DNA from: Aquamicrobium lusatiense
Lineage (GTDB): Bacteria; Pseudomonadota; Alphaproteobacteria; Rhizobiales; Rhizobiaceae
DNA length: 64,000 bases
Assembly: GCF_014201615.1 (NCBI RefSeq)
Contig: NZ_JACHEU010000004.1
Location: 1 to 64,000 of the forward strand
Reading direction: 5' to 3'
Positions 6,239 to 40,106 of the stretch are shown piece after piece (position 1 is the stretch's first letter; each line of letters opens with the position of its first letter). The notes beneath the pieces were generated by a model. The model did no database searches and was not told where the DNA came from. It saw only the letters and a list, made by a program, of their open reading frames with translations. The position numbers and the translations under genes were made by a program.

Positions 6239-6256
6239 GTTGATTTGCTCGTCTCG

Positions 6257-6304
6257 GGACTGGAAAGCCGGCGTCATGGTGTCGGCTTTCCAGTCCTGTT
6301 TTTA
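6257..6304 (+). terminator. Rho-independent terminator after the first operon
   Basis: A perfect 14-bp stem, GGACTGGAAAGCCG paired with CGGCTTTCCAGTCC, encloses a 12-base loop and is followed at once by TGTTTTTA. It lies 19 bases after the stop of the acyl-CoA synthetase and before the convergent PaaK-like gene. The T-run is on the plus strand only, so it mainly ends the plus-strand operon. Confidence 0.92.
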
Positions 6305-6336
6305 TCAACGCCACCTGCGATGGGCGCCTGCTCCGA

Positions 6337-7719
6337 TCATGGCGTGTGCGCCGTCCGGGCCGCATCTGAAATATAGTCGCGCTGGTCTTTCCATCGTCTG
6401 GCCTTGTACTCGCTGCGAGCAAGGCTTTCGGGCGCGAGAGCGGTGACTTCGAAGCGCAAAGCTATCTTGCTGCGGATTTCGCTGGCGATCCGTTCGCAAA
6501 GTAAGGCGGCCTGACCCGGCTCCAGAAAGCTCTTCGGCATAAAGCGCAGTTCCGCCTGGTCGGAGCCGTCAGGCGTGGTGCTGAGCAGGATCTCGTACTC
6601 ATCGACTTCGTAAAAGCCGAGCACAACCTGCTCGATTGCCTGTGGCCACACATTGATACCCTTGATGCGATACATTTCGTCCAGACGGCTGATCGAACCG
6701 ATTTCGATACCGCAGAATGGGCGACCGCATCGGCAATAGGAACCGCTGTGATAGACCGCCAGATCTTTCATACGGCAACGAATGACCGGCGTGTCGAGGT
6801 GATAGAGGCTGGTCAGAACCACCTCGCCTTTTTCCCCGTCGCGCGCATGTTTGCCGGTGGCCGGATCTATGACCTCAAGCAGTACATGCGGATCTATGTT
6901 GTGCAGCAGGCCCGGCCGGTTCTCCGCGCCCAGGCCTTCCTCGCATGTGAACATGTGATCGTTGCGCGATTGCGTCGAGCCATAACGGTCGAACACGCGT
7001 GCGTCCCAGCCGCGCTCGAGCCTGCCATACCAGCGCAGCGATGCGCCTTCCCCGCCGCAGAACAGCGCCTCCACGCCCGACACATCGGCACCCTCATCCC
7101 GGATCGCTGCCAGATGCCATAAGTAAGATGTCGTGCCAATCAGCCCTTTCGGTTTGAAACGATCGATAAGTTCCAGCTTGCGCCGGGCATCGTAGTTGCC
7201 GGCAGGAAGAACGTTGAGCCCGTAGTCGAGCGCCCCGTGATATTCCAGCCTGCCGCCGCCCAGCATGGTCAGCGGCAGAGTGAGCAAAGCCGTGTCGCCC
7301 GGCCGCAGGCCGGCCCATCGGTACATATAGGCGTAGACCGCAGAACTGCCCTGCAATTCGCGCAGCGTTTGCGCATGCAGTTCCTGCCCCTGTCCGGACG
7401 TGCCGCTGGTGGTGAAAAGCATGAGTGGCCCGGCATTCCCGATGAGATGCCGGAGACGGCTCCCATAAGGCGGTTCGTTCACCTGATCCGCGATGAAGTC
7501 GCTCTTCTCGACTGTGGGCACGCGCTTCGTGAAATCCTCCAGCGAATTGATCCTGGTGATATCCAGGCCATGCTCACGCCAGAGACGGGCATAGAAGCCA
7601 TTGGTGTTAGAGACGTGATCGAGCAATGCCCTGACCCGGCGAAACTGCAGCGCCCGCAATTCGGCATGCTCCATCTGCTCGAATGCATCGCGCATGATCG
7701 GCAGGGAATTCAGCATCAT
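6337..7719 (-). CDS. Phenylacetate-CoA ligase-like AMP-forming ligase (PaaK-type)
   Basis: The 460-residue product shows adenylate-forming enzyme motifs: FTTSGTSGQGQELHAQT near residue 105, DRYGSTQSRND in the central region, and the cysteine-containing CRCGRPFCG seen in PaaK-type ligases. It ends with the usual C-terminal domain starting IGSISRLDEMYRIKGINVWP. It would activate an aromatic or other carboxylic acid with ATP and CoA. It follows the acyl-CoA dehydrogenase at 7787-8941 on the same strand with a 67-base gap, so the two likely form one unit. The identity of the acid is unknown. Confidence 0.87.
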   Translation of the reverse strand: MMLNSLPIMRDAFEQMEHAELRALQFRRVRALLDHVSNTNGFYARLWREHGLDITRINSLEDFTKRVPTVEKSDFIADQVNEPPYGSRLRHLIGNAGPLMLFTTSGTSGQGQELHAQTLRELQGSSAVYAYMYRWAGLRPGDTALLTLPLTMLGGGRLEYHGALDYGLNVLPAGNYDARRKLELIDRFKPKGLIGTTSYLWHLAAIRDEGADVSGVEALFCGGEGASLRWYGRLERGWDARVFDRYGSTQSRNDHMFTCEEGLGAENRPGLLHNIDPHVLLEVIDPATGKHARDGEKGEVVLTSLYHLDTPVIRCRMKDLAVYHSGSYCRCGRPFCGIEIGSISRLDEMYRIKGINVWPQAIEQVVLGFYEVDEYEILLSTTPDGSDQAELRFMPKSFLEPGQAALLCERIASEIRSKIALRFEVTALAPESLARSEYKARRWKDQRDYISDAARTAHTP

Positions 7720-19425: not shown

Positions 19426-20255
19426 CTAGGTGTTCAGTCCCGATATTCGATGGATTGGATTGATGAAGAATCGATCTGGCTGTGAAGTCCATCGTTTGCA
19501 GATGAACTCGCAGGGTGTGAGGCCCTTTAACATCTTGAGCCCTGTGCCGAAGTTGCAGGCGGCGATGAAGTCCTGGAGATGCCGTCGCAACTGGTCGTGG
19601 TTACCGTAGTGGAGGCGCTTGACAGTGGGGTCTCTGAAGGTGCGGTTCATGCGCCCGCCCTGATCGTTGATCCAGGGATGATTGATCTGGGGGGAATCTG
19701 TGCTTGATGTCTTTGTCAGTGGATCTTCTAACGCACCGCTTCGATCATAGAACGAGGAACGTCGGGGCAGACACATGATTGGCCTTTCCGGCTAGCTGCG
19801 CGCAGGCGAACTTTGAAGGCCGGTCGATGGCGACGAACATGTACAGCTGGGCTTCGGCTGTCTGCAGCTCGGCGACATCGATGCGGAAGTAGCCTGTCGG
19901 GCGGGCTTTGAACTTTTTCCTGGCCGGCTTGTCGCCGACAACTTAGGGCGCAGACAGCGATGGGGGGGCGTGTCACGCAAGGGATTACGGCCTCGGGTGC
20001 TTAGAGACAATCGCCGAACGGCAGCAGCGTATAGCGTCGGAAGGCGGCAATGACCGCGTCATCTTTCCGCGATAGCATCGTTGAATGCGGCTTCTTCGGT
20101 CCCGTCGGCAGGTCGGCTGTCGAGGTCCGCTTCGCTACTGTCTTCTGGTTGATCCCGTAGCGCCTGGCCAGTCCCCTCAGGCTTTCTTGACCATGGTGTA
20201 TCGATCGACGCACCACCTGTGTTGCCGTGGCGCTCCCATGCGGCACCGGGCCCAT
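19426..20255 (-). pseudogene. Degenerate IS481-family transposase
   Basis: The minus strand encodes, in several broken frames, pieces of one transposase. The N-terminal part (SIHHGQESLRGLARRYGINQ, then TADLPTGPKKPHSTMLS) ends at a stop just after DCL near 20001. The C-terminal part contains INHPWINDQGGRMNRTFRDP, TVKRLHYGNHDQLRRHL and GLTPCEFICKRWT, ending at 19426. A middle section near 19728-19976 is out of frame and shortened. Stops, frameshifts and missing residues mean it is not functional. Intact terminal repeats were not identified. It marks past insertion next to the DhaKLM-PTS operon. Confidence 0.85.
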
Positions 20256-20454
20256 AGCGCATCCTTCCATTGCTGGGAAAGATTGCAACATAAAAATCCG
20301 GAATCAAACACCGGGGATGCAGGCGGTGGGGTCGAGAGGGATTTGCTTCCTGCGGTCCGAGTCTGGTCGTCAGAATTCACATCAACGAAGGTACACACCG
20401 CATATTTCTACTTAACAACTCATACAGAGCATGGCTTGTTATCATGTGATTTAA

Positions 20455-20475
20455 TATTAGAATTTTTTTCTAATA
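20455..20475. promoter_or_regulatory. Perfect AT-rich inverted repeat
   Basis: TATTAGAA and TTCTAATA form perfect 8-bp arms around five T bases. The hairpin is too AT-rich to be a strong terminator; a protein-binding site or a bent promoter-upstream element is more likely. Confidence 0.45.
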
Positions 20476-20556
20476 AATCGATACGAAGAAGTTCGATATT
20501 CCCCACAGGGCGCTTTGAAGCCTCTTGCATTAGCCCGTTTGCGGCGCTACGAATTT

Positions 20557-20583
20557 GTTGAGTTACTAAATATGTGACTTAAC
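20557..20583. promoter_or_regulatory. Operator-like inverted repeat 26 bases before the operon start
   Basis: GTTGAGTTAC and GTGACTTAAC pair at eight of ten positions around a seven-base AT spacer. The position just upstream of the ribosome site of the first gene (ATG at 20609) suits a repressor site. The DNA-binding-like protein at 29231-29638 is one candidate to bind it. Confidence 0.45.
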
Positions 20584-20608
20584 ATGGCACATCGTGATCG
20601 GAGGATGC

Positions 20609-21124
20609 ATGACCATAGACGAGGCCATTACGCTATTCGGACGGGAATGCGAGGCTATCTGGCTGACCCAGCCTGAGGAAATTCGCGTCCTCTCACGCGG
20701 GGAAAGCGTGCAGGGCGTCGGATCCAGAGGGCAATATCTGACCCCCCTGATCTTCGCGGAAGGCACAGCCCGCTCGCTGGCCGACGAAACGCTCTGGGTC
20801 ATTCACCTGATGTGCGACCGCCCGGACACCGATCTGGCGACGCTCAAGGTGATGATCTCGGAACTGGTGGGCCGCAAGGCGGGCTTCTTCGAGCTGTTCG
20901 GGCTCGAGCACGCCGCCGGCCTCGTCCGCACTTATATCGGGCTTGCCCAGACCGCGCAGGATCTGGCCGAACTTCAGCGTCTGACCGACGCTGCCCTGGC
21001 CTATGCCAACCGCGTCCATGTCTGGCTCGACGCTGCCTTTCCCTGGGGCGTCTGCACCGGCTTCATGCGCGCCGGCTATGGTACGCGCAACGCCGATGGT
21101 CTGGAAATGGGAGCAAAGTCATGA
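20609..21124 (+). CDS. Cucumopine-synthase C-terminal-like helical protein
   Basis: This 171-residue, mostly helical protein starts MTIDEAITLFGRECEAIWL and ends with YANRVHVWLDAAFPWGVCTG. I recognise it as resembling the helical-bundle half of cucumopine synthase, the opine-forming enzyme of Agrobacterium that condenses histidine with 2-oxoglutarate. This is from memory of the family and needs a profile search. The ATG at 20609 follows GGAGGA. The stop overlaps the DUF3830 start as ATGA, so the two may form one split enzyme. It heads a 12-gene block. Confidence 0.55.
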   Translation: MTIDEAITLFGRECEAIWLTQPEEIRVLSRGESVQGVGSRGQYLTPLIFAEGTARSLADETLWVIHLMCDRPDTDLATLKVMISELVGRKAGFFELFGLEHAAGLVRTYIGLAQTAQDLAELQRLTDAALAYANRVHVWLDAAFPWGVCTGFMRAGYGTRNADGLEMGAKS

Positions 21125-21543
21125 AGCTGATCCTCAACATGGCCGGGCGCGACACCTGCGCCATCGAAATCTGGGAAGACCGCTATCCGGCCGTGGCCGA
21201 AGCGCTGCGCAAGATATTGCCGGTCACCAGCATTGCCCAGCACGGCAAGATCGTGGGCGACCTGCTCTATTTCTGCCTGCCGGTGGTGATGCCCAACGAA
21301 AAGCCGCAGACGCTGACGGAAATCTGCAAGGAGCGTCGCGCCGCCAAGGGCACGGCCGGCGGTTCGGTCTGCTTCTACGGCCCGCGCCAGCAGATCTGCA
21401 TCTATTACGGCGATGACGTGTCGCCGGAGCCCTTCGAGCTTTCCTATTGCGGAGAGATCATCGAAGGGGCGACCGAAATGGAGCTGGCCGCCGTCAAGAC
21501 CTGGACCAGCCCGGGCGTGCCGCTGACCTTGCGGCTCGCCTAG
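21121..21543 (+). CDS. DUF3830 family (cyclophilin-like fold) protein
   Basis: The 140-residue protein has the DUF3830 hallmarks LLYFCLPVVMPNEK, GGSVCFYGPRQQICIYYGDD and EPFELSYCGEI. Known members adopt a cyclophilin-like barrel without a proven general function. In cucumopine synthase a barrel of this kind is, as I recall it, fused to the helical bundle; here the two parts are separate overlapping genes. It may form a two-subunit enzyme acting on the substrate carried by the downstream ABC importer. Confidence 0.75.
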   Translation: MKLILNMAGRDTCAIEIWEDRYPAVAEALRKILPVTSIAQHGKIVGDLLYFCLPVVMPNEKPQTLTEICKERRAAKGTAGGSVCFYGPRQQICIYYGDDVSPEPFELSYCGEIIEGATEMELAAVKTWTSPGVPLTLRLA

Positions 21544-21601
21544 AAATAACCGTGTTCCCGGTGGGAGGCGGCTTGTGAACATGAACAAAAAAGGGGAAGT
21601 C

Positions 21602-22747
21602 ATGACGCATCGTATGAACTGGCTGGCAAGGACCGGCCTGGCAATGGCAGTAGCGGCGACGCTGATGCAGGGGGCAAGCACCCCTGCATTGGCGCAGTCG
21701 CAGGAGAACGTGACTTTCGGCTTCTTCGCACCGTTGACCGGTCGCTTCGGTGCCAATGGCGAGCGCTTCAAGGAAGCGGTCGAGCTGTTTGTCGAGCAGA
21801 CGAACGAAAGCGGCGGCATTGGTGGCAAGCCGCTGGTCGTCCTGACCGAAGACGATCGTGGCGAGCCGATGCAGGCGACCGCGATCGCGCAGAAGTTCTC
21901 CGAGAACAAGGATGTTGTGGCGGCCATCGGCTCGTTCACCAGCGGCAACTCCATCGCGGCCGGCGAAATCTTTGCCGCGGCCGGCGTACCGCAGGTCAGC
22001 CCGTCATCCTCGCATCCGGACTATACTAAGATCTCCAAATACCAGTTCCGTATTCCCAACACTCAGGACACCATGTCCCTGATCTATGTGAAGACGCTGG
22101 AAGAGAACGCGCCGCATGAGCGCGTGGCCATCATCTACTTCCAGGACGACTGGGGCATCTTTGTTGGCAACGCGACCAAGAAGGCGCTCGAAGCCGACGG
22201 TTCGGAAGTTCCGGTGTTCGAAGCCATGCTTCCCGACGCCCGCGACTTCCGTCCGCTGGTGACCAAGCTGCGTCAGGCCAATGTGGACGCCATCCTTCTG
22301 GCCAGCCATTACGGCCCGTCGGCCACCTTCCTACAGCAGCTGCGCCAGGCGGGCCTCGAAACGCCGGTCATCGGCCCGGAAACCCTCTACAATCCGGAGC
22401 TGATCACGCTGGCCGGCGATGCAGCCAACGGTGTCATCACCACCACCTACTTCTTCCCGGGCGATCCGTCGAAGGCCAAGTTCGTGGAAGAGTACAGCGC
22501 CAAGTTCGGCCGCGAACCGGATCTCTGGGCTGCCTATGCCTACGACGCCATCTCCATCGCTGCGGCCGGCGCCAAGGCCCTTGCCGATGCAGGTCAGCCG
22601 ATCACCCGCGAAGCCCTGCGTGACGCCATCGACAACCTGCCGCCGTTTGACGGCGTTACCGGCGTTACCGAATTCGTTGATGGAACACCTGCCAAGGACC
22701 TGACGATTCTCAAGATCCAGAATGGCGCTTACACGCTGCTTAAGTGA
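21602..22747 (+). CDS. ABC transporter substrate-binding protein (LivK-type)
   Basis: The protein (381 residues from this start) has a signal peptide (LARTGLAMAVAATLMQG, cleavage probably after ALA) and a mature domain beginning VTFGFFAPLTGRFGANGERF. It contains SSSHPDYTKISKYQFRIPNT, typical of branched-chain amino acid or amide receptors. The ATG at 21602 has AGGGGAAG just upstream; a GTG at 21575 with GGGAGG is an alternative. It is followed by a strong hairpin and the fused permease gene. The ligand may be an amino acid, amide or opine-like compound. Confidence 0.9.
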   Translation: MTHRMNWLARTGLAMAVAATLMQGASTPALAQSQENVTFGFFAPLTGRFGANGERFKEAVELFVEQTNESGGIGGKPLVVLTEDDRGEPMQATAIAQKFSENKDVVAAIGSFTSGNSIAAGEIFAAAGVPQVSPSSSHPDYTKISKYQFRIPNTQDTMSLIYVKTLEENAPHERVAIIYFQDDWGIFVGNATKKALEADGSEVPVFEAMLPDARDFRPLVTKLRQANVDAILLASHYGPSATFLQQLRQAGLETPVIGPETLYNPELITLAGDAANGVITTTYFFPGDPSKAKFVEEYSAKFGREPDLWAAYAYDAISIAAAGAKALADAGQPITREALRDAIDNLPPFDGVTGVTEFVDGTPAKDLTILKIQNGAYTLLK

Positions 22748-22768
22748 TCTCCCCCGGCGCCTGATATT

Positions 22769-22794
22769 CCGGAGGGCCTTCAAAGGCCCTCCGG
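22769..22794 (+). other. Strong stem-loop after the LivK-type gene
   Basis: CCGGAGGGCCTT pairs with AAGGCCCTCCGG around two central bases, giving a long GC-rich hairpin without a T-run. It lies between the binding-protein and permease genes and probably stabilises the upstream transcript or attenuates read-through. Confidence 0.7.
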
Positions 22795-22828
22795 AGATCG
22801 GTCCGTGACCCCCTGAGGTTTCCCTCCC

Positions 22829-24709
22829 ATGTTGGAACTCTTTTTCAGTCAGGTCCTTAACGGGATCGTGATCGGCTTCGTGTACGCCATGATTGCACTC
22901 GGCTTCAGCCTTGTGTTCGGCGTCGCCAATATCATCAATTTCGCTCAGGGCGCCCTTTTGATGCTGGGTGCGTTTCTGACCTTTACCATGGTGCGGCTTC
23001 ATGTGCCGCTGGCGTTAGCCATACCGTTGGCGATTGCCATCACCACGGTGACGGGCATGCTCATCGAGAAACTGGCTCTGCGCCCGCTCCAGAATGCGCC
23101 CTATATCGCTCCGCTTCTGTCGACCCTGGCGATCGCCATCATCTTTGATGCAGGCGCAGAAATGATCTGGTCTGCGGAAATCCAGTCTTTTCCTTCCCCT
23201 CTTTCAAGCTTCGTGATCCTGATCGGCTCAGCATATATTACCGGCGTCGATATACTGATCGTCGTCTTGTCGCTGGTCGTCATGGCGGCGCTGATGCTGT
23301 TCCTCTCACGAACCTGGACAGGCAAGGCGCTGCGCGCCACCGCCCAGGACCCGGAAGCCGCGCAACAGATGGGCATCAACGTTCCGCTGATGCGCCAGTT
23401 CTCCTTCGGCCTTGCCGGTGCCCTTGGCGCGCTGGCCGGCGTGCTGATCGGCATGTACTACCTGTCGGTCTTCCCGCAGATGGGCATTCCCTTCGGCCTC
23501 AAAGGCTTCGCGGCGGCGCTGCTCGGTGGCCTCTCCTCGGTTCCCGGCGCTATTGTCGGCGGCATGCTGCTCGGCATTTTTGAAAGCCTGGCTTCGGGCT
23601 ATGTCGGCGAAGGCTGGCGCGATGTCACCGCCTTCAGCGTGTTGCTGCTTGTTCTCATAGTGCGCCCGCATGGTCTGTTCGGCAACAAGTCGCTCGACGC
23701 CCTCGGCGGCGCATCTGGCGCATCGGGCGGCATTCCCACAACCTCCGTCGTTGCATCCATGGCCGGCTCGACCGGCAGGACCAAACAGCGTGTCATCGAT
23801 GCGCCCCTGCCCGTTCTGCTTGGCGTCATCGCACTCTTTGCGCTGCTGCCGGTGCTGAGCGGTTCCAACTACCTGATGCAGATCGGCGTGCAGGCCGCGA
23901 TCTACGCAATGCTGGCCGTCTCGCTCACGCTGCTGACGGGTTCGGCCGGCGTCATCTCCATCGGCCATGCCGCGTTCTTCGGCGTGGGCGCCTATGCCGC
24001 AGCGCTGGCGAGCGTAGCCTGGAGCATTCCGGCAGAAGCCGCGTTCCTGTTCGCCGGCGTGGCGGGTGCTGTGTTCGCGGCAGTGCTCTACGCGCCGACG
24101 CTGCGCCTCTCGGGTCATACCGTCGGCCTTGCGACGCTCGCCATCGGGCAGATCGTCTATCTCGTGTGCCTCAACTGGGTCGACCTGACCCGCGGGCCCA
24201 TGGGCATACCCGGCGTACAGCGGCCATCGCTGTTCATCGGCGGGCTCGACATGCGTTCACTGTCGGCCCAGTACTGGCAGGCGCTTGTGGTGCTCGGCAT
24301 CGTCGTGGCCGTCGCCTTTGCGGTGCTGAACTCGCCGATCGGCAGGACGTGGCGCGCTATTCGCGAAGACAGGCTGGCGGCTCATGCCTCCGGAGTCCCC
24401 GTGGCACGCTACCTGACGCTGGCATTTCTCGTCTCCGGCTTCCTTGCCGGTCTGGCTGGCGCACAGTTCGCGTTCCTCCAGAACTTCGTCAGCCCCGACA
24501 GCTTCATCATCGACACGTCCATCGTGCTGATCTCCATGATCGTGCTGGGTGGGCTCGGAAACATTACCGGGGCGCTGATCGGAGGCGTGGTGCTTGCATT
24601 GCTGCCTGAAGTTCTGCGCGAATTCGCCGAATACCGCATGGTCGCCTATGGCCTCATCCTTCTCCTTCTTCTGCGCTTCCGTCCGCAGGGACTGGCAGGA
24701 ACCCGATGA
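22829..24709 (+). CDS. Fused LivH-LivM ABC transporter permease
   Basis: The 626-residue protein joins two permeases normally made as separate chains. Residues 1 to about 290 resemble LivH (IGFVYAMIALGFSLVFGVAN and GLKGFAAALLGGLSSVPGAI). A Gly/Ser/Thr-rich linker follows, and residues from about 330 resemble LivM (SLTLLTGSAGVISIGHAAFF and VSPDSFIIDTSIVLISMIVL). It provides both halves of the membrane channel for the branched-chain-amino-acid-type importer. The stop overlaps the next ATPase start as ATGA. Confidence 0.93.
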   Translation: MLELFFSQVLNGIVIGFVYAMIALGFSLVFGVANIINFAQGALLMLGAFLTFTMVRLHVPLALAIPLAIAITTVTGMLIEKLALRPLQNAPYIAPLLSTLAIAIIFDAGAEMIWSAEIQSFPSPLSSFVILIGSAYITGVDILIVVLSLVVMAALMLFLSRTWTGKALRATAQDPEAAQQMGINVPLMRQFSFGLAGALGALAGVLIGMYYLSVFPQMGIPFGLKGFAAALLGGLSSVPGAIVGGMLLGIFESLASGYVGEGWRDVTAFSVLLLVLIVRPHGLFGNKSLDALGGASGASGGIPTTSVVASMAGSTGRTKQRVIDAPLPVLLGVIALFALLPVLSGSNYLMQIGVQAAIYAMLAVSLTLLTGSAGVISIGHAAFFGVGAYAAALASVAWSIPAEAAFLFAGVAGAVFAAVLYAPTLRLSGHTVGLATLAIGQIVYLVCLNWVDLTRGPMGIPGVQRPSLFIGGLDMRSLSAQYWQALVVLGIVVAVAFAVLNSPIGRTWRAIREDRLAAHASGVPVARYLTLAFLVSGFLAGLAGAQFAFLQNFVSPDSFIIDTSIVLISMIVLGGLGNITGALIGGVVLALLPEVLREFAEYRMVAYGLILLLLLRFRPQGLAGTR

Positions 24710-25578
24710 ACACAAACGCAAACCAGAACCAGCCAGGCACGCTGACCATCAACAAGGTCAGCCGGCGTTTTGGCGGCGTGATCGCCGCCAACGGGCTGGA
24801 CTTCACGATCCCCAAGGGCGAATTCCTCGCCGTCGTGGGGCCTAACGGGGCCGGCAAGTCGACCCTGCTCCAGATGATCAGCGGCATCATTCGGCCCAGT
24901 GAAGGCGAAATCCTGCTTGGCGACCGGCGCATCGACAGGTTGCGGCCGGAGGCGATCAACGCACTGGGCATCTCACGCACCTTCCAGACGAGCCGCGTGT
25001 TCCCGATGCTGACCATTCGCGACAGCATTATGGTCGGCACTCAGGTCGGCCTGATCGGGGGCGGCCGTGCCCCGCGCAAATATGGACCGGTGACCGAGCT
25101 GATCTCCGCGCTTCTTCGCCTCCCCGCCTATCAGGCGCGGGTCGCAGCATCCGAAAAGCGCGTGGAAGACGTGATGGCGATGTTCGGCGACCGGCTTCTG
25201 CCGCGCCGCAACGAACAGGCCTTTTCCCTGTCCTATGCCAATCGCCGGCGTCTGGAGATTGCCCGCGCGCTGGTGCAGGACCCGGACATTCTGTTGCTGG
25301 ATGAACCTGCAGCAGGCATGAACCCGACCGAGACCGACGAACTGACCGAGGTGCTGGCGGATCTGCGGCGCAGACGGCCCGACATGACCATTGTCATGGT
25401 CGAGCACAAGTTGCAGGTCGTGCGCCAGCTGGCAGAGCGCTGCATCGTCATGGCCATGGGCACGGCCATCGTAGATGCGCGCCCCGAAGCAGCGTTGGAA
25501 GATCCGCGCGTCATCGAAGCCTATCTCGGCACGCGACGCACAGCCGCCGCATTCGGAAAGGTGAATGCCGATGACTGA
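24706..25578 (+). CDS. ABC transporter ATP-binding protein (LivG-type)
   Basis: The 290-residue ATPase has Walker A GPNGAGKST, Walker B DILLLDEPAAGMNPTE, the H-loop VMVEHKLQVV and the long LivG insertion before a variant signature (FSLSYANRRRLEIARAL, in place of LSYGQQRR). The altered signature lacks the usual Gly-Gln pair, which could affect ATPase activity. It works with the LivF-type subunit encoded next. Confidence 0.9.
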   Translation: MNTNANQNQPGTLTINKVSRRFGGVIAANGLDFTIPKGEFLAVVGPNGAGKSTLLQMISGIIRPSEGEILLGDRRIDRLRPEAINALGISRTFQTSRVFPMLTIRDSIMVGTQVGLIGGGRAPRKYGPVTELISALLRLPAYQARVAASEKRVEDVMAMFGDRLLPRRNEQAFSLSYANRRRLEIARALVQDPDILLLDEPAAGMNPTETDELTEVLADLRRRRPDMTIVMVEHKLQVVRQLAERCIVMAMGTAIVDARPEAALEDPRVIEAYLGTRRTAAAFGKVNADD

Positions 25579-26308
25579 TACCCCGAAGAAAACTCCGCTT
25601 GCCTCACTGACCAATGTGGATGTGTTCTACGGCCCGGTGCAGGCGCTATTTGGTGTCAACGTCACCGTCATGCCGGGTGAAACAGTGGTGGTCCTTGGCG
25701 GCAACGCGTCGGGCAAGTCCACCACCGTCAAGACCCTTCTCGGGCTGGTGAAGGTCGCCTCGGGCGAGGTCGTTTTCGATGGCGAAAGCGTCAACAACCG
25801 TCCGGCCTACCAGATGATCGAGCGCGGCATCGGCTCGATCCCCGAAGGCCGTCGCATGTTCTCGGAAATGACCGTGCTCGACAATCTCAAGCTTGGCGCT
25901 TTCGTGCGCCGGGGTGAGCCGAAGGCGGTTCTGGATGCGCAGATCGAAGAGGCCATGGTGATGTTTCCGCGTCTGGCCGAGCGCCGCAACCAGATTTCCG
26001 GCACCATGTCCGGAGGTGAACAGCAGATGCTCGCCATGGCTCGTGCCTGGATGCGCAAGCCAAAGCTGCTCTGCATCGACGAGCCGTCCATGGGCCTGTC
26101 GCCTCTCTTCGTTGACCATGTCTATGAGATCCTCTCCAAATGGAAAGCGCAGGGCCTGACCATCCTCATGGTCGAGCAGAATGCGAATATGGCGCTGTCC
26201 ATCGCCGATCATGGCTATGTGCTGAGACAGGGACATGTCTCCGTTGCGGGCACGGCCGCCGAACTGCGCGACAATGACGAAGTCCGTCGCGCCTATCTGG
26301 GAGGATGA
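25571..26308 (+). CDS. ABC transporter ATP-binding protein (LivF-type)
   Basis: The 245-residue ATPase has Walker A GGNASGKST, the LivF segment RGIGSIPEGRRMFSEMTVLD, signature MSGGEQQMLAMARAWM and Walker B LLCIDEPSMGLSP. The gene overlaps the LivG-type gene by eight bases; an ATG at 25565 is an alternative start. It completes the importer and is followed three bases later by dhaL, so transporter and kinase genes are clearly one operon. Confidence 0.92.
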   Translation: MTDTPKKTPLASLTNVDVFYGPVQALFGVNVTVMPGETVVVLGGNASGKSTTVKTLLGLVKVASGEVVFDGESVNNRPAYQMIERGIGSIPEGRRMFSEMTVLDNLKLGAFVRRGEPKAVLDAQIEEAMVMFPRLAERRNQISGTMSGGEQQMLAMARAWMRKPKLLCIDEPSMGLSPLFVDHVYEILSKWKAQGLTILMVEQNANMALSIADHGYVLRQGHVSVAGTAAELRDNDEVRRAYLGG

Positions 26309-26311
26309 GAG

Positions 26312-26923
26312 ATGCAGATGGACCGTGACCTGCTTTACAGGCTGATCGAGGCTGCCGTCGGCACCGTGGACAGCCATTGGCAGGAGTTGACCGCACTCGA
26401 TCAGGCCATTGGCGACGGCGACCACGGCGCGGGCATGAAGCGCGGCTTCGACGCCGTGATGGCCGACGCCGACAAACTGGCCGAACAGCCCCTGCCAGCA
26501 ACCCTGACCGCAATTGGCCGGACTCTGGTGATGTCGATGGGCGGGGCTTCCGGCCCGCTTTACGGTACCTTTTTCATGGAACTGGGCAAATCATTGGATG
26601 CTGCACCGGACAGGGCGGCGCTGAATGCAGGTTTCACCCGCGCACTTGCCGCTGTTGCTGCCCGCGGCAAGTCCGAACCCGGCCAGAAGACCATGCTGGA
26701 CGTACTGGCACCCGTCTCGGCCGCGCTTGATGCGGGAGCGGATGCCGGCACCGTTGCGCGTGTCGCGCACGACGCTGCTGAGGCAACTGTACCCATGCTG
26801 GCACTTCGCGGCCGCGCAGCCTTTCTGGGCGAGCGCTCCGTCGGCCATATGGACCCCGGCGCGCGGTCGTCATCACTGATCATTGGCGCTGTCTGCGCCG
26901 TTCTGGAGGAGCAATCGGCATGA
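26312..26923 (+). CDS. dhaL: Dihydroxyacetone kinase ADP-binding subunit DhaL
   Basis: The 203-residue protein carries the DhaL nucleotide loop with Asp30, Asp35 and Asp37 in LDQAIGDGDHGAGMKRG, at the same numbering as the E. coli subunit. The GGASGPLYGTFF loop and the GxxDPGARSSSLI-type C-terminal motif (HMDPGARSSSL) are also present. DhaL holds a permanently bound ADP that is rephosphorylated by DhaM and passes phosphate to the substrate held by DhaK. The stop overlaps the dhaM start as ATGA. Confidence 0.94.
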   Translation: MQMDRDLLYRLIEAAVGTVDSHWQELTALDQAIGDGDHGAGMKRGFDAVMADADKLAEQPLPATLTAIGRTLVMSMGGASGPLYGTFFMELGKSLDAAPDRAALNAGFTRALAAVAARGKSEPGQKTMLDVLAPVSAALDAGADAGTVARVAHDAAEATVPMLALRGRAAFLGERSVGHMDPGARSSSLIIGAVCAVLEEQSA

Positions 26924-27306
26924 ATGTCGGAATTGTGATCGTCTCGCACTCATCCAAGGTAGCAGAAGGCGCCGCCGACATGGTCCGCCAGATGGTCGGC
27001 AACCAGGTAAGCGTGGCCTATGCCGGAGGTGACGAATCCGGCGGGCTCGGCACCAGCGTGGCCAGGATCATGGCCGCAATCGATGCGGCCTGGAGCGACG
27101 CGGGCGTCGCCATTCTCGTCGATCTGGGTGGGGCAGAGACGAACAGCGAGATGGCGATGGAAATGCTGCCGCCAGAACGACAGGGCAAGGTCGTGATCTG
27201 CAATGCCCCGATCGTTGAGGGCGCCGTCATCGCTGCCACCGAAGCGTCTGGCGGATCTTCACTTGAAAAAGTTCAGGCCGTTGCCGAAGAGCTTTCGGCC
27301 CAGTAA
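26920..27306 (+). CDS. dhaM: PTS-type phosphotransferase subunit DhaM (EIIA-like domain only)
   Basis: The 128-residue protein is a stand-alone EIIA-Man-like domain with His10 in VIVSHSSKVAEGA as the phosphorylated residue and a conserved VDLGGAETNSEMAMEML segment. It carries phosphate from HPr to ADP on DhaL. In E. coli DhaM is fused to HPr and a partial enzyme I; here those modules are the next two genes. Confidence 0.92.
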   Translation: MNVGIVIVSHSSKVAEGAADMVRQMVGNQVSVAYAGGDESGGLGTSVARIMAAIDAAWSDAGVAILVDLGGAETNSEMAMEMLPPERQGKVVICNAPIVEGAVIAATEASGGSSLEKVQAVAEELSAQ

Positions 27307-27316
27307 GGAAACTTCG

Positions 27317-27610
27317 ATGTCGCAGGACTACCTCGTCGCCTCCGCCGTTCTGACCAATGATGCAGGCATGCACGCCCGTCCCTCGGTCAAGCTCACGCAA
27401 TTGGCACGGTCCTTTACCGCAAATATCGAGGTGGCGACCGACAGCGCCGGCCCCTGGGTCGACGCCAAGAGCCCTGTCAAGCTGATGCGGTTCCGGGCGC
27501 CGCAGGGCGCTACGCTCTGGTTGCGTGCTGCGGGCGAAGATGCACAACGCGCACTGGATGAGGTGCTGGCGCTGGTAGCCGGCAATTTCGGTGAAGGTGC
27601 GCATGGCTGA
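27317..27610 (+). CDS. HPr family phosphocarrier protein
   Basis: This 97-residue HPr has the active-site motif DAGMHARPSVKL, with His19 as phosphate acceptor. It lies between dhaM and the enzyme I gene and overlaps the latter by eight bases. It probably serves only this phosphorelay and is distinct from the cell's nitrogen-PTS HPr. The ATG at 27317 follows AAGGAAAC, ten bases after dhaM. Confidence 0.93.
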   Translation: MSQDYLVASAVLTNDAGMHARPSVKLTQLARSFTANIEVATDSAGPWVDAKSPVKLMRFRAPQGATLWLRAAGEDAQRALDEVLALVAGNFGEGAHG

Positions 27611-29234
27611 GATCGTCTTCTCCGGCATTCCAGCTTCAAAAGGTCTGGCTCTGGGGTATATCTGGCGGCCAGCCACGGGAGCCGCATGTGGTGAGGCCAC
27701 TCAGGGGGACGCTGCTCTGACCGGGGGCGATGCTGACGCCCTGCGCAAGGCCATTGCTACGGCGATTGGAGACCTGTCTCAGCTTGAGGGTACGCTCTCC
27801 GGCGAAGAAGCAGAAATCGTGGGCATGCAACTGGCATTCCTCAGCGACGACGAACTGGCCCGCCCCGCTTTTGAAGCGATAGAGGCCGGGCAATCGGCTG
27901 TCGTTGCATGGACAGAGGTCATGAATGCCGAAATTGCCACGTATGAGGTGTCCGACGACGAATATTTCCGCGCACGCGCCATCGATTTTCAGGACATACG
28001 TGACCGGGTTCTCGCCGCTCTGACGGGCGTGCAAAGCGGTGTGTTGCAGGTTCCCAGGGGCGCTATTCTGCTCGCCTCGGATCTGAGACCCTCCCAGTTT
28101 CTCTCCGCGCGCTGGGGCGCCGGCTGCGGCATCGCTCTCACCGACGGCAGCCCGACAAGCCATGTCGCCATGCTGGCGCGGGGTCGCGGCTTGCCGATGG
28201 TGGTGGGGCTGGCCGGCGAACTGCAGGACCTCGAAGGCACGGCTCTTCTCGACGGAACCACTGGAATTCTCGTTTCCGGTCCCGACGCAGAGCGACTGGC
28301 GGAGGGCAAGGCTCGCCTTGAAGCCGATTCGGCAGCTCGTAAACAGAGCGCGGCGCTGGCCGGCGAACCGGCCCTCAGTCGCAACGGCGTTCGGGTAGCC
28401 ATCCATGCGACCATCGCCGATCCCGCAGAACTTGATGGACTTGACCCGAGCCATTTCGACGGCATAGGTTTGGTGCGGACGGAACTCTTCCTCGACAAAC
28501 TCGAAAAACTGATGGACGAGGAAACGCAGTTTGCCACATACCGGCGCATCCTGACATGGGCTGATGGAAAGCCCGTCACCGTTCGAACGCTGGATGCGGG
28601 CGGCGACAAGCCGATCAAAGGTTATACCGTCGCCAATGAGGCCAATCCCTTCCTCGGGATACGCGGCATCCGTCTCTCGCTTCGTCAACCCGAGGTGTTC
28701 CGTGTGCAATTGCGCGCTCTGGCGCGCGCCGCAGCTTACGGCAGGCTCAGGATCATGTTGCCGATGGTGACGCTGCCGGACGAAATCACCACGGCAAGAG
28801 AACTGCTCGACGCCGAAATTACCGCTCTTGCCGCCGCAGGCGTGGACCATGGCCGTCCCGCGCTTGGCATCATGGTCGAGGTTCCGGCCGTCGCCATCAC
28901 GCCAGAGCGTTTTGACGCCGATTTCTACTCGATCGGATCCAACGATCTGGTGCAATATACCTGCGCGGTTAGTCGCGACGAGGCAGGGGTTGCGCATCTC
29001 GGCTCCGCAATTGACCCGTCTGTTCTGGCCCTCATCGCGCGTGTGGTCGAACATGGCCGCGCAACCGGACGTGAGGTGAGCCTTTGCGGTGACGCCGGCA
29101 GCGATCCGCGAATGGTGCCGCATTTCCTCGCCGCTGGCCTGCGTTCACTTTCGGTGCAATACGGATTGGGAGGGGCCGTGAAGGCGACCATTGCGGGCCT
29201 TGATCTCGTCGATCACAGGGCAGGGCAGGCATGA
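27603..29234 (+). CDS. ptsI: Phosphoenolpyruvate-protein phosphotransferase (PTS enzyme I)
   Basis: The 543-residue enzyme has the enzyme I layout: an HPr-binding N-domain, the phosphorylated His187 in SPTSHVAMLARGRGLPM, and a PEP-binding barrel with RTLDAGGDKPIKGY, NEANPFLGIRGIRL, IMVEVPAVAI and the catalytic Cys in VSLCGDAGSDP. There is no GAF domain, so it is not the nitrogen-PTS enzyme. It transfers phosphate from PEP to HPr. The ATG at 27603 overlaps the HPr gene and has a GGTGAAGG ribosome site. Confidence 0.93.
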   Translation: MAEIVFSGIPASKGLALGYIWRPATGAACGEATQGDAALTGGDADALRKAIATAIGDLSQLEGTLSGEEAEIVGMQLAFLSDDELARPAFEAIEAGQSAVVAWTEVMNAEIATYEVSDDEYFRARAIDFQDIRDRVLAALTGVQSGVLQVPRGAILLASDLRPSQFLSARWGAGCGIALTDGSPTSHVAMLARGRGLPMVVGLAGELQDLEGTALLDGTTGILVSGPDAERLAEGKARLEADSAARKQSAALAGEPALSRNGVRVAIHATIADPAELDGLDPSHFDGIGLVRTELFLDKLEKLMDEETQFATYRRILTWADGKPVTVRTLDAGGDKPIKGYTVANEANPFLGIRGIRLSLRQPEVFRVQLRALARAAAYGRLRIMLPMVTLPDEITTARELLDAEITALAAAGVDHGRPALGIMVEVPAVAITPERFDADFYSIGSNDLVQYTCAVSRDEAGVAHLGSAIDPSVLALIARVVEHGRATGREVSLCGDAGSDPRMVPHFLAAGLRSLSVQYGLGGAVKATIAGLDLVDHRAGQA

Positions 29235-29638
29235 GCGGCCCGCGCATTCCCAAGCCCGTCCGGCAATACAAGGAAGTTCTGCGCCGGATACTGGACAGCC
29301 GGCCATCGGGCACACGCCAGCGGCTGGCCGTTGCCCTGGGAACCAACCGGTCCTTTGTCTCGCAGATCAGCAGCCTGTCATACAAGGTGGCGGTCCCGGC
29401 GCATCACATCGATACGATTTTCGAGGTCTGCCATTTTTCACCCACAGAACGGGTCGAGTTCTTGGCTGCCTATGATGCGGCCCATCCTGACCAGCGCAAG
29501 CAGTCCGGCGGCAGCGTTGCAAGGCGCACCATTCAGGTCGTTGTGCCGGACATGGGCAGCGAACGCGCCAACCGGCTGGTGGATGACGCCATACGCGACA
29601 TGGCCCGCAACATTATTCTGATTTTGCAGGAAAAATAG
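29231..29638 (+). CDS. Small XRE-like DNA-binding protein within the PTS operon
   Basis: The 135-residue protein has an apparent helix-turn-helix (TRQRLAVALGTNRSFVSQIS) near residues 27-50, and a C-terminal helical half ending DDAIRDMARNIILILQEK. The function is unknown. Being overlapped by enzyme I (ATGA) and followed by dhaK, it may be a regulator whose activity is set by the phosphorelay or by DhaK/DhaL, as with DhaR in E. coli. That role is inference. Confidence 0.7.
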   Translation: MSGPRIPKPVRQYKEVLRRILDSRPSGTRQRLAVALGTNRSFVSQISSLSYKVAVPAHHIDTIFEVCHFSPTERVEFLAAYDAAHPDQRKQSGGSVARRTIQVVVPDMGSERANRLVDDAIRDMARNIILILQEK

Positions 29639-29660
29639 CCTGCCAGGAGGAGGATGCTTC

Positions 29661-30644
29661 ATGAAGAAGCTGATCAACGATATCGCCAATGTCCTCGACG
29701 AAAGCCTTGACGGTTTTGCTGCCGCCCACGCGGATCTGGTCGCGATGGACCCCGGCCGCCGCTTCGTGCAACGCCGTACGCCTGCTCAGGCCAAAGTCGC
29801 ACTCGTCTCCGGCGGCGGATCGGGCCACGAACCCCTGCATGCCGGCTTTGTCGGACGGGGGATGCTCGATGCCGCGGTTCCCGGCGCGATTTTCACCTCG
29901 CCCACTCCCGACCGTATCCTTGCCGCCATCGAGGCGGCCGACACAGGCGCCGGTGTCGTCCTGATCGTCAAGAACTACGAAGGCGACGTGATGAACTTCG
30001 AGATGGCCGCGGAAATGGCCGAGGGCGAGGTCGCGCGCGTTCTGGTTGATGACGACGTGGCGGTCGACAACTCGTCCTACACCATCGGGCGTCGTGGGGT
30101 TGCCGGAACGCTGGTGGTTGAGAAAATCCTCGGCGCTGCCGCCGAAAAGGGCATGGCGCTGCCAGACCTCGTCGCTCTCGGCGCCCGCGTCAATGCCGCA
30201 ACCCGCAGCATGGGCGTTGCTCTCTCCTCCTGCACCGTACCCGCAGCCGGCATTCCGACCTTCCAGCTGGGAGAAGACGAGATCGAGGTCGGCGTCGGCA
30301 TTCATGGCGAGCCGGGTCGCCGCCGCGCGCCGATGGTCTCTGCCGACGCCATCGTCGCCGAACTGCTCAAGGCGATCCTCGACGATCTCAAGCCCAAGGC
30401 TGGCAGCAAATGCCTGCTCTTCGTCAACGGCTTTGGCGGCACGCCTTCGAGTGAACTCTATCTGGTGTTCAACGCCGCTCGCAAACGTCTCGAGGTCGAA
30501 GGCCTCAGCGTCGCGCGCAGCCTCGTCGGCTCTTATGTCACCTCGCTCGAAATGGCAGGTTGCTCGCTGACGGTCACGGTGCTCGACGATGAACTGACGG
30601 CGCTTTGGGACGAGCCTGTGAGCACTCCGGCGCTGCGTTGGTAA
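29661..30644 (+). CDS. dhaK: Dihydroxyacetone kinase substrate-binding subunit DhaK
   Basis: The 327-residue protein has the DhaK substrate site: GGGSGHEPLHAGFVGRG near residues 52-68, KNYEGDVMNFEMA with the catalytic Asp, and His215 in VGIHGEPGRRR, which forms a covalent hemiaminal with the carbonyl substrate. It should phosphorylate dihydroxyacetone or a related ketose using phosphate from DhaL. It closes the operon, separated from the regulator by 22 bases including AGGAGGAGG. No glycerol dehydrogenase is nearby, so the true substrate may differ from dihydroxyacetone. Confidence 0.93.
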   Translation: MKKLINDIANVLDESLDGFAAAHADLVAMDPGRRFVQRRTPAQAKVALVSGGGSGHEPLHAGFVGRGMLDAAVPGAIFTSPTPDRILAAIEAADTGAGVVLIVKNYEGDVMNFEMAAEMAEGEVARVLVDDDVAVDNSSYTIGRRGVAGTLVVEKILGAAAEKGMALPDLVALGARVNAATRSMGVALSSCTVPAAGIPTFQLGEDEIEVGVGIHGEPGRRRAPMVSADAIVAELLKAILDDLKPKAGSKCLLFVNGFGGTPSSELYLVFNAARKRLEVEGLSVARSLVGSYVTSLEMAGCSLTVTVLDDELTALWDEPVSTPALRW

Positions 30645-31120
30645 TCTCCGCTTCCTCCCGCCCGGTGGCAGCTTCGCTGGATCCGATCTTGCCGTATGTG
30701 ACAAGCTGATCCATGATCCCGATTGCAACCGACGACGCCATTGGTCCCATATTCCCGGACGGTGATCGCAAATGGCCTGCCGTTCGTCTCCGGCCAGATG
30801 CGCTGGCGCCTCGCCGCTATCGGCGAGGCGGCCTGTGCCAGCCTTTCACGCATGGGCAGGTGTCGTATTCCATTTGATTTGGTTCTTCCTTCCTTTGTGT
30901 GATTCAACGATAGCATTCTCGCCCCCCTGAATTCCGGCACGGCGTGACCGCAGAGGGCTCTGTTCGATCCGATTGTTCAGGTATTTGTTCTTGCGTATCC
31001 TGATCGGCTTCAGCCGGCGCCGGGAGCGATCCTGACAACCTGCGGAAGGCTGGCTTCAAATTACCTATCAGCTGCCGCGCTCGTTTCTGCTCTCATCGCA
31101 TGGGTTTTAATGCGCCCATC
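30645..31120. other. Convergent intergenic region with hairpin, no confident gene
   Basis: About 475 bases separate dhaK from the convergent Fbp-like ATPase gene. A perfect 9-bp hairpin (GCCTCGCCG/CGGCGAGGC, loop CTAT) lies at 30808-30829 without a T-run. The minus strand around 30574-30860 shows weak, frame-shifting protein-like stretches (for example AIGIMDQLVTYGKIGSSEAA) that may be a decayed gene, but no family is recognised. Confidence 0.5.
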
Positions 31121-38336: not shown

Positions 38337-38852
38337 ATGACCACGACCCTTGCCGATATTTTCCTGAGCAATCGCAAATCCATCATGTGGAGCGTGTTGC
38401 GGATCGTGCGTGACCCGCAGACGGCGGAAGATGTCGCGCAGGAGACCTATGTCAGGGCCAGAAAGGCCGTCGAGCACGGTCCCATCGACCACATCGAAGC
38501 CTTCCTGTTCCAGACGGCCCGCAACATTGCGCTCAACCACCTGCGCCACCAAAGAACTCGTGGGGCTGTCGAATGCGACGACCTGCCGGCGGCTGATGTC
38601 GGCAACATCGCCTCGGATACGCCCTCGCAGGAGGCCGATCTCATCCATCGCCAGAGGTTGCGCCATCTGCACGAGGCCGTGGCGAAGCTACCGCAGCGGG
38701 CGAGGACGGTGTGGGTGCTCAGCCGCATCGAGAAATGGTCCTACCCCAGGATTGCCGAGCATCTTGGCGTTTCGCCGAATACCGTCTTCAATGATCTGAA
38801 GCTGGCGCATGCTCATTGCGTTGAGGCTCTGGCGAAGATCGACCGCAACTGA
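38337..38852 (+). CDS. RNA polymerase ECF sigma factor (FecI-like)
   Basis: The 171-residue protein has sigma region 2 (VRDPQTAEDVAQETYVRARK) and region 4 (VLSRIEKWSYPRIAEHLGVS, then PNTVFNDL). It is a FecI-type iron-starvation sigma factor that would direct transcription of the FecR and heme-receptor genes downstream. The ATG at 38337 is chosen by comparison with the family; the ribosome site is weak. Confidence 0.88.
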   Translation: MTTTLADIFLSNRKSIMWSVLRIVRDPQTAEDVAQETYVRARKAVEHGPIDHIEAFLFQTARNIALNHLRHQRTRGAVECDDLPAADVGNIASDTPSQEADLIHRQRLRHLHEAVAKLPQRARTVWVLSRIEKWSYPRIAEHLGVSPNTVFNDLKLAHAHCVEALAKIDRN

Positions 38853-38900
38853 ACAACCACCTGACGGGCGAGTGGCCGTCGCCGGTATTTGGAGTGCATT

Positions 38901-38927
38901 TTGTGAGATTACAGCCCGCGATGTGTC
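38901..38927 (+). promoter_or_regulatory. ECF-type promoter upstream of fecR-like gene
   Basis: TTGTGAGATT, a 12-base spacer, then GTGTC is found here and again, with the same spacing, before the heme-receptor gene (40011-40038). Two such matched elements in front of the two targets of a FecI-like sigma factor strongly suggest its -35 and -10 sites. Confidence 0.6.
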
Positions 38928-38977
38928 TCACCTACAGGGTCGCTCTCATGACGACCTGCCAGACCGGATTGACCTGA

Positions 38978-39997
38978 GTGGAACGTGACAAGCCAGATCA
39001 GAGCGAGGAGGAGGGGTTCGTCCATCCCGACGCAGCGATGGATGCTGCGCTGAGCTGGCTCTTTACGCTTCAGGCCGAACCGAACGACAGGCAGCTGCGG
39101 ACGGCATTCGAGGCATGGCGTCAGGCGGATGCTGCAAACGCCCGGGCATTTGCCACGGTCGCCGAGGCTTGGGAACTTCCGGAAATGGACATGGTTGCAG
39201 GCGAGGTGGCTTTACGTGCCGGCCACGTCGCTCTCGACCGAAAGCCGGTCGCCATCGACGGCGGGAGGCGGAAAAGGAAGGTGTGGAGCCGGGCGGTTCT
39301 CGCGGCTGCCGCGGCAATCTTGATTGCGGTCTGTGTCCAGCAATACCCCGCGCTGATGCTGCGATGGCAGGCGGATTACATCACCGCCACTGGCATGCGC
39401 GACGAAATCATGCTGCCCGACGGTTCGCGCATGATCCTCAACACGGCCTCGGCCGTCGCGCTCGATTTCGAAGGCGGCAGGCGCGCCGTTTCGCTGCTTG
39501 GGGGAGAGGCGTTTTTCGATGTCGTTCCGGACCCTGCGCGGCCCTTCACCGTTGCCGCGGCCTTTTCCTCGGTGGAGGTGAAGGGAACGGCGTTTTCCGT
39601 CCGCACAGAAACGGATCATGACGTCGTCGTGCTGGAACGCGGCCATGTCGATGTGACGCGACCCGCCGCACCGGGTGAAAAGGTGGCGCTGGAACCCGGC
39701 GAAAGCGTGACGGCCACAAACACCAGACTTTCCGCGGTGGAGAAAATGGATACGGCAACAGCGCTTGCCTGGCTGAACGGCCGGGTGATTTTCCGGGATC
39801 GTCCGTTCGGCGAGGTCTTGCAGGAAATCGGCCGATATCACAGCCCGCCGGTCATCGTTGCGAACACACGGCTCAGGCAGGTGAGGATCAACGGCAACTA
39901 TCGGCTCGAAGATCCGGAGCGGGCGATCCGCTCTCTTGCCACCGCTGCAGGCGCTTCCGTTACCCGACTTCCCGGCGGAATCCTAATCCTGCGATAA
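38978..39997 (+). CDS. FecR family anti-sigma regulator
   Basis: The 339-residue protein has an N-terminal DUF4880-like cytoplasmic part (ALSWLFTLQAEPNDRQLRTAF and AFEAWRQADAANARAF), one membrane helix (AVLAAAAAILIAVCVQQYP), then the FecR periplasmic domain (TGMRDEIMLPDGSRMILNTA and VKGTAFSVRTETDHDVVVLE). It passes the signal from the loaded outer-membrane receptor to the FecI-like sigma factor. The likely start is a GTG at 38978. Confidence 0.9.
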   Translation: MERDKPDQSEEEGFVHPDAAMDAALSWLFTLQAEPNDRQLRTAFEAWRQADAANARAFATVAEAWELPEMDMVAGEVALRAGHVALDRKPVAIDGGRRKRKVWSRAVLAAAAAILIAVCVQQYPALMLRWQADYITATGMRDEIMLPDGSRMILNTASAVALDFEGGRRAVSLLGGEAFFDVVPDPARPFTVAAAFSSVEVKGTAFSVRTETDHDVVVLERGHVDVTRPAAPGEKVALEPGESVTATNTRLSAVEKMDTATALAWLNGRVIFRDRPFGEVLQEIGRYHSPPVIVANTRLRQVRINGNYRLEDPERAIRSLATAAGASVTRLPGGILILR

Positions 39998-40010
39998 AAA
40001 CTCAACTTTT

Positions 40011-40038
40011 TTTGTGAGATTTGCCCCGCCCGCGTGTC
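40011..40038 (+). promoter_or_regulatory. ECF-type promoter upstream of the heme receptor gene
   Basis: TTTGTGAGATT, a 12-base spacer, then GTGTC matches the element at 38901-38927 in both boxes and in spacing. The spacers also share GCCCGC. It starts a few bases after the FecR-like stop and 69 bases before the receptor start. Confidence 0.6.
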
Positions 40039-40106
40039 AGGTGTTTACAGGCCGGGTCCTCGCAGCAGCGAACCGGCCCTCATGACCAGTTTGCAGGGGA
40101 TTGCCG

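Follow-up and report, generated by a model that had tools for sequence, protein, structure and literature searches.

The operon and its genes

We describe an operon of twelve genes in Aquamicrobium lusatiense, located at positions 20609–30644 of the first 64,000 nucleotides (nt) of contig NZ_JACHEU010000004.1 (this whole stretch of DNA is referred to as the window; the operon is on contig C4, 260 kb). All twelve reading frames are open and co-directional on the plus strand (Table 1). The first two genes encode a Cucumopine_C helical-bundle protein (here cucC) and a cyclophilin-like partner related to DUF3830. They are followed by a complete ATP-binding cassette (ABC) importer of the Liv/HAAT type, for which Pfam recognizes the substrate-binding protein, the LivH/M permease and two ATPases, and by a dihydroxyacetone (DHA) kinase cassette, which is driven by the phosphotransferase system (PTS) and contains DhaL, DhaM, HPr, enzyme I (EI), a small helix-turn-helix (HTH)-like protein and DhaK.

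The gene types and common orientation had been proposed in a first-pass annotation made from the sequence alone, and the open frames and the Pfam and NCBIfam families bear them out. The tight spacing it described holds for most junctions, which are overlaps or short gaps (from gene 1 to gene 12: -4, 58, 81, -4, -14, 3, -4, 10, -8, -4 and 22 nt, the HPr–EI value of -8 being based on the EI start codon ATG at 27603), with the exception of the two longest gaps of 58 and 81 nt that flank livK and exceed the "few tens" of bases claimed. The label "DNA-binding-like" for the small eleventh protein was assigned by eye only, and no Pfam or NCBIfam model matched that protein.

Table 1. Genes and other features of the operon region, in window coordinates
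Feature	Position	Strand	Support
cucC, Cucumopine_C helical-bundle subunit, 171 aa	20609..21124	+	PF18631 106 bits (cut-off 27); 3x27 profile match
Cyclophilin-like / DUF3830 subunit, 140 aa	21121..21543	+	PF12903 22.9 bits (cut-off 26); pRi1724-type profile match
LivK-type periplasmic binding protein	21602..22747 (alternative GTG start 21575)	+	PF13458 205 bits; best solved chain 3hut
Fused LivH-LivM permease	22829..24709	+	PF02653, two stretches
LivG ATPase	24706..25578	+	PF00005
LivF ATPase	25565..26308	+	PF00005
DhaL	26312..26923	+	TIGR02365 196.6 bits (cut-off 138.3)
DhaM (EIIA-Man type)	26920..27306	+	TIGR02364 140.9 bits (cut-off 98.25)
HPr	27317..27610	+	TIGR01003 57.8 bits (cut-off 47.9)
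EI, ATG at 27603	27603..29234	+	TIGR01417 347.1 bits (cut-off 341.7; just over)
Small HTH-like protein	29231..29638	+	homologue between EI and dhaK in 10/10 fetched relatives
DhaK	29661..30644	+	TIGR02363 474.4 bits (cut-off 406.25); substrate-site motifs kept
Hairpin between livK and livHM, 13 pairs, loop of 4	22767..22796	+	
Upstream element AATTTGTTGAGT..CTAAA (candidate)	20552..20570	+	alignment with both Kaistia operons

Conservation and distribution

Scanning genome contigs with a 25-row cucC profile yielded three loci. Two of them, in Kaistia granuli and Kaistia adipata, reproduce the complete set of twelve genes in unchanged order, with 69–94% identity to the window, which rules out chance adjacency of the twelve genes; the third is a contig of a metagenome-assembled genome (also G674) where the pair alone matched. 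The first-pass annotation had made the functional link depend on recurrence of the neighbourhood in another genome, and it recurs in these two species. The junction between livF and dhaL is tight in all three genomes (3 nt in the window, approximately 4 nt in both Kaistia species), and the three cucC proteins group in a clade of nine rows with 100/100 support. Moreover, the operon's own DAK1 gene is the only one found in the window's genome (G000) and in each of the two Kaistia genomes.

The cucC–DUF3830 pair was not found to be widespread. PF18631 matched one of 61 relatives and one of 398 genomes across the phylum, and matches to the A1 profile were present in 5 of 385 genomes of the class, 11 of 397 of the order and 5 of 28 of the Kaistia family, which together make 16 different genomes; since the searches drew different genomes, model and profile cannot be compared on these counts. 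Because the operon is rare and patchy, its distribution suggests horizontal spread. Close relatives of the fused permease (E <= 1e-150) were found in 5 of 397 genomes, namely G000, the two Kaistia species with the full operon, G516 and G643. The last of these has a related Liv operon with neither the pair nor the kinase matched on the fetched stretch, and since both G516 and G643 carry the Liv operon without the kinase, not every member requires it.

A probable split relative of opine synthases

The two leading genes appear to encode a relative of cucumopine/mikimopine synthase that is divided into two subunits; the synthase condenses histidine with 2-oxoglutarate. A cucC profile matches cucumopine synthase 3x27 in its C-terminal half (E 4e-18) and the Pictet-Spenglerase 9ns6 in its N-terminal half (E 1e-10), while the cyclophilin-like partner matches 2nnz at 3.5e-5 and 9ns6 weakly, at 0.055. 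The likeness to 3x27 and 9ns6 thus concerns the helical domain as judged by sequence; the difference is that those proteins are single fused chains, whereas in the window the Cucumopine_C and cyclophilin-like domains are encoded by two overlapping genes. In profile–profile comparisons with the split subunits of the type found on plasmid pRi1724, cucC reached a probability of 99.2 against Cucumopine_C and its partner 95.6 against DUF3830. The Pfam search proposed with the first-pass annotation recovered Cucumopine_C, but DUF3830 remained under its cut-off (Table 1). The description of the two proteins as opine-synthase-like stands as a statement of family relation; they look like two subunits of one enzyme rather than separate parts.

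Related proteins occur in other arrangements. A plasmid search with the window's cucC returned five records at approximately 24% identity. A stretch of 3 kb in genome G116 (locus L052, 4788–7782) encodes two proteins of fused length, one of which carries Cucumopine_C C-terminally and the other N-terminally. A further locus (L109 in G809) contains a divergent Cucumopine_C-like/DUF-like pair together with a Liv-type importer and a GntR-type regulator (both assigned by eye), an FAD_binding_2 flavoprotein and UbiD/UbiX genes; this pair perhaps handles another substrate of the same enzyme family.

Opine plasmids, importers and histidine genes

Plasmid pRi1724 is a mikimopine plasmid according to two papers (PMC5606197, PMC8554961). 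On this plasmid, what we take for the mikimopine synthase is a fused protein that carries Cucumopine_C as its C-terminal domain. It adjoins a split DUF3830 and Cucumopine_C pair, an amino-acid ABC importer and hydantoinase A/B, and the split subunits share 54% and 40% identity with the N- and C-terminal parts, respectively, of the adjacent fused protein. From its position, the pRi1724 pair would split mikimopine; agropine synthase and its catabolic cyclase provide a precedent for such a relationship. Hydantoinase A/B genes located beside opine genes have been proposed to open lactam opines (PMC6733357), and another paper cites a publication on a cucumopine-catabolic region of plasmid pAtAg67 (PMC10745273); pAtAg67 is absent from the six plasmid records matched by a pRi1724 subunit.

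The window shares with the pRi1724 region a split two-gene enzyme related to the synthase and a linked amino-acid-type importer; it differs in the class of the importer, in having a kinase instead of hydantoinases and in the reversed order of the subunits. Catabolic operons of tumour-inducing and root-inducing (Ti/Ri-type) opine plasmids join an opine-type importer to an opine-splitting enzyme; the window has an importer and a synthase-related pair, for which a splitting role is putative. Amino-acid-type ABC importers adjoin pairs on pRi1724 and on Sodalis plasmid pHS1 (as annotated), and in genomes G719, G770, G656 and G714 (by eye, with three importer genes of G656 and the substrate-binding protein of G719 checked in Pfam). 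Literature searches found nothing on DUF3830, and nothing linking cucumopine synthase with cyclophilin, cucumopine with Pictet-Spengler chemistry, Pictet-Spenglerase with a helical bundle, DHA kinase with opines or dhaKLM with Rhizobium.

Several of these neighbourhoods also contain histidine utilization genes. We searched for hutH in 12 of the 16 genomes positive with the A1 profile (G141, G174, G427 and G473, all with E >1e-5, were outside both this test and the neighbourhood work). A hutH or hutH-like gene was located within 12 kb of the Cucumopine_C gene on the same contig in five of the twelve, with G116, G719 and G656 scoring over the hutH cut-off and G714 and G779, which are of the same genus, below it. 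In G719 a hutUGHIF cluster is found beside the importer and the pair, in G116 the neighbours are hutH, hutU and hydantoinase A/B, and on Sodalis pHS1 hutH is 1.3 kb from the pair. A rough binomial estimate for this proximity (four of eight genomes at 0.58% each) gives 8e-8, to be taken as an order of magnitude at best because the choice of the eight genomes was made with the data already known and because two of these genomes, G719 and G809, share a genus.

The neighbourhoods point to cleavage rather than synthesis by the pair. The opposite direction, in which the pair would condense an imported amino acid with a carbonyl compound, is suggested by the names of the solved homologues (a synthase and a Pictet-Spenglerase); we consider it improbable, given that pairs are found with importers, hut genes and hydantoinases, and that Pfam and NCBIfam searches of the twelve genes revealed no exporter.

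The Dha cassette and its phosphorelay

The phosphorelay is apparently intact. Both phosphoryl donors, HPr and EI, are encoded within the operon, and the relay motifs, chosen in part from an alignment, are all present (GGGSGHEP, GDVMNFE and GIHGEPG in DhaK, AIGDGDHG in DhaL, VIVSHS in DhaM, GMHARP in HPr and PTSHVAM in EI). A stronger match to the EI model is located on contig C10, so that the cell has another EI-type gene besides that of the window. The cassette resembles Escherichia coli DhaKLM in that DhaK, DhaL and DhaM all exceed the equivalog cut-offs and keep the motifs, and differs from it in that HPr and EI are separate genes not fused to DhaM (the model NF008478 spans three proteins of the window); no DhaR was matched by family searches of the twelve genes.

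DhaM was found in 35 of 61 genomes, G000 included, and in all ten of the other DhaM loci that were fetched the genes follow the order dhaL-dhaM-HPr-EI-HTH-dhaK. In the four loci for which genes were called, a CUT1-type sugar ABC importer is located upstream of the cassette (by eye), and two annotated plasmids likewise combine the cassette with a sugar/carbohydrate ABC importer. The expectation, stated in the first-pass annotation, that PTS-driven DHA kinases are usually linked to glycerol genes does not hold for the loci examined. The cassette is a stock unit that serves a sugar importer in relatives, and what is new in the window is therefore the swap of the importer (Liv for sugar ABC) and the addition of the split enzyme. 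Sugar ABC operons with the cassette, as in Rhizobium sp. T1473 and Phyllobacterium zundukense, have the same cassette order as the window, but a sugar importer, often with a second dhaK, takes the place of the Liv importer and split enzyme.

The HTH-like protein is intrinsic to the cassette, because its homologue is found between EI and dhaK in all ten relatives. This bears on another suggestion of the first-pass annotation, namely that the phosphorelay controls uptake, in which case the HTH-like protein could be the output. An HTH homologue (38%) at 5968–6420 of locus L083 in G643 is divergent to the related Liv operon of that genome, with no Dha genes on the fetched stretch. This arrangement would fit such regulation and is the little support that we found for it. 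However, the protein accompanies the cassette also beside sugar ABC importers, and Pfam and NCBIfam matched no PTS-regulated regulator domain in any of the twelve gene products; we regard the regulatory explanation as very improbable.

A second combination of the pair with a kinase

In G656, a member of the Kaistia genus, a three-gene amino-acid importer, cucC and the DUF3830 gene are transcribed in this order, divergently from a gene for the HutC repressor followed by one for a fused DAK1–DAK2 kinase. Beyond the kinase there are a second GntR-type regulator (by eye) and HutF on the other strand, and then HutI, HutH, HutG and HutU. The fused kinase scores 616 bits with the model for DHA kinase family proteins (cut-off 492) and just below the cut-off of the glycerone-kinase equivalog (550 against 575). 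The congener G515, which has no Cucumopine_C match, has a hut cluster without the kinase, importer or pair (hutH assigned by family, the rest by eye), and its DAK gene is on another contig beside an apparent sugar ABC system. The pair and a DHA kinase seem to have been assembled twice, because both the class of the importer and the type of the kinase in G656 differ from those of the window.

The main rival explanation for the window is that two independent modules, uptake of the Liv/opine type and a stock DHA utilization cassette, share a transcript without sharing a substrate. The invariant order of the cassette in ten of ten relatives behind a different class of importer (seen by eye in four loci) and the occurrence of the six upstream genes without the cassette in G516 speak for it. 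Against it, the join is kept in three genomes with the short livF–dhaL junctions given above, the operon's DAK1 is the sole one in those genomes, and G656 provides a separate link between pair and kinase that involves another kinase and another importer. We therefore consider two unrelated modules an unlikely explanation, albeit one to be taken seriously.

Regulatory features and neighbouring genes

The upstream element listed in Table 1 is common to the window and both Kaistia operons in alignment and is a possible operator or promoter. The gap between livK and livHM contains a strong hairpin in the window and also in K. granuli, K. adipata and G516 (loci L022, L023 and L055), with unrelated sequences; an intercistronic hairpin is expected of an element that sets expression of the binding protein above that of the permease. 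Scans of 20300–31100 for promoters (one promoter-like site versus 2.3 in shuffled sequences) and terminators (nine terminator-like sites versus 7.4) were uninformative, and Rfam and tRNA scans of the window found nothing. Just upstream of the operon, on the minus strand at approximately 19426–20300, short open reading frames (ORFs) resemble transposase remnants by eye, two of them without a Pfam match, and a transposase-like ORF (by eye) is also found upstream of the pair in G516. At approximately 38337–42671 the window contains an ECF-sigma-like (extracytoplasmic function) gene recognized by eye, FecR (PF04773) and a TonB-dependent receptor with an STN domain (PF07660), a predicted Fec-type cell-surface signalling set.

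Proposed function

We propose, with a probability of roughly 0.4, that this is a catabolic operon in which an opine-like adduct is imported and cleaved by the pair and the carbonyl half is trapped by the PTS-driven DHA kinase. The substrate of the Liv importer would be a compound formed by Pictet-Spengler-type condensation of a small hydroxy-carbonyl compound with histidine or a similar amino acid. The split enzyme would then run the cucumopine/mikimopine synthase reaction backwards. Of the two products, the amino acid and a dihydroxyacetone-like ketose, the ketose would be phosphorylated for lower glycolysis through a relay from phosphoenolpyruvate via EI, HPr, DhaM and DhaL to DhaK. The sequence itself shows that the operon exists and is conserved, that the pair is related to the two halves of mikimopine synthase and that the relay is apparently intact; the catalytic direction, the substrate and the triose product we infer.

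The first-pass annotation had suggested that an imported opine-like compound is converted and phosphorylated. The linkage is conserved, and import and conversion of such a compound remain the best reading, but phosphorylation more likely concerns the released triose than the adduct. A kinase acting on the imported compound or its hydroxyketone side chain, before or instead of cleavage, would be compatible with the intact substrate-site motifs, and DAK-family enzymes accept ketoses besides DHA; however, DhaK and DhaL score as ordinary DHA kinase equivalogs, and we consider action on the adduct distinctly unlikely.

Several observations weigh against the catabolic reading. With respect to the enzyme, the second gene scores below the DUF3830 cut-off (22.9 versus 26 bits), a plasmid search with its product gave no match, and a tree, in which branches are long, places the pairs of the window and of pRi1724 in different clades; moreover, no cucumopine-type Agrobacterium plasmid was among the six records matched in the plasmid search with the pRi1724 subunit. 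With respect to the kinase, G516 keeps the pair and the Liv genes at 61–81% identity with a flavoprotein after livF in place of the kinase, and no DhaK is encoded on the stretches fetched from G719, G770 and G674, whose DAK1 matches are on other contigs. With respect to histidine, hutH of G000 is on another contig, that of G516, G770 and G809 is far off or on other contigs, and the search in G674 found none. In K. granuli and K. adipata, the two species with the full operon, no gene passes the hutH cut-off of 539 bits, the sole match being a paralogue at approximately 183 bits; histidine, if released, would therefore not be burnt by that route.

In its most specific form, the proposal amounts to an undescribed class of opine-like nutrients, adducts that an amino acid and a triose such as dihydroxyacetone or glyceraldehyde form by Pictet-Spengler chemistry, the amino acid being histidine in the Kaistia-genus relative; these would be handled by a split retro-Pictet-Spenglerase and a dedicated PTS-driven DHA kinase; we offer this form tentatively and hold it to be rather doubtful. 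If true, it would predict an amino acid–triose nutrient that has not been described and provide a genetic handle on the breakdown of opine-type heterocycles, and it would suggest that the mikimopine synthase of transferred DNA (T-DNA) and the bacterial splitting enzyme share an ancestor. It would likewise show that a phosphorelay-driven kinase cassette moves between importers as a trapping module.

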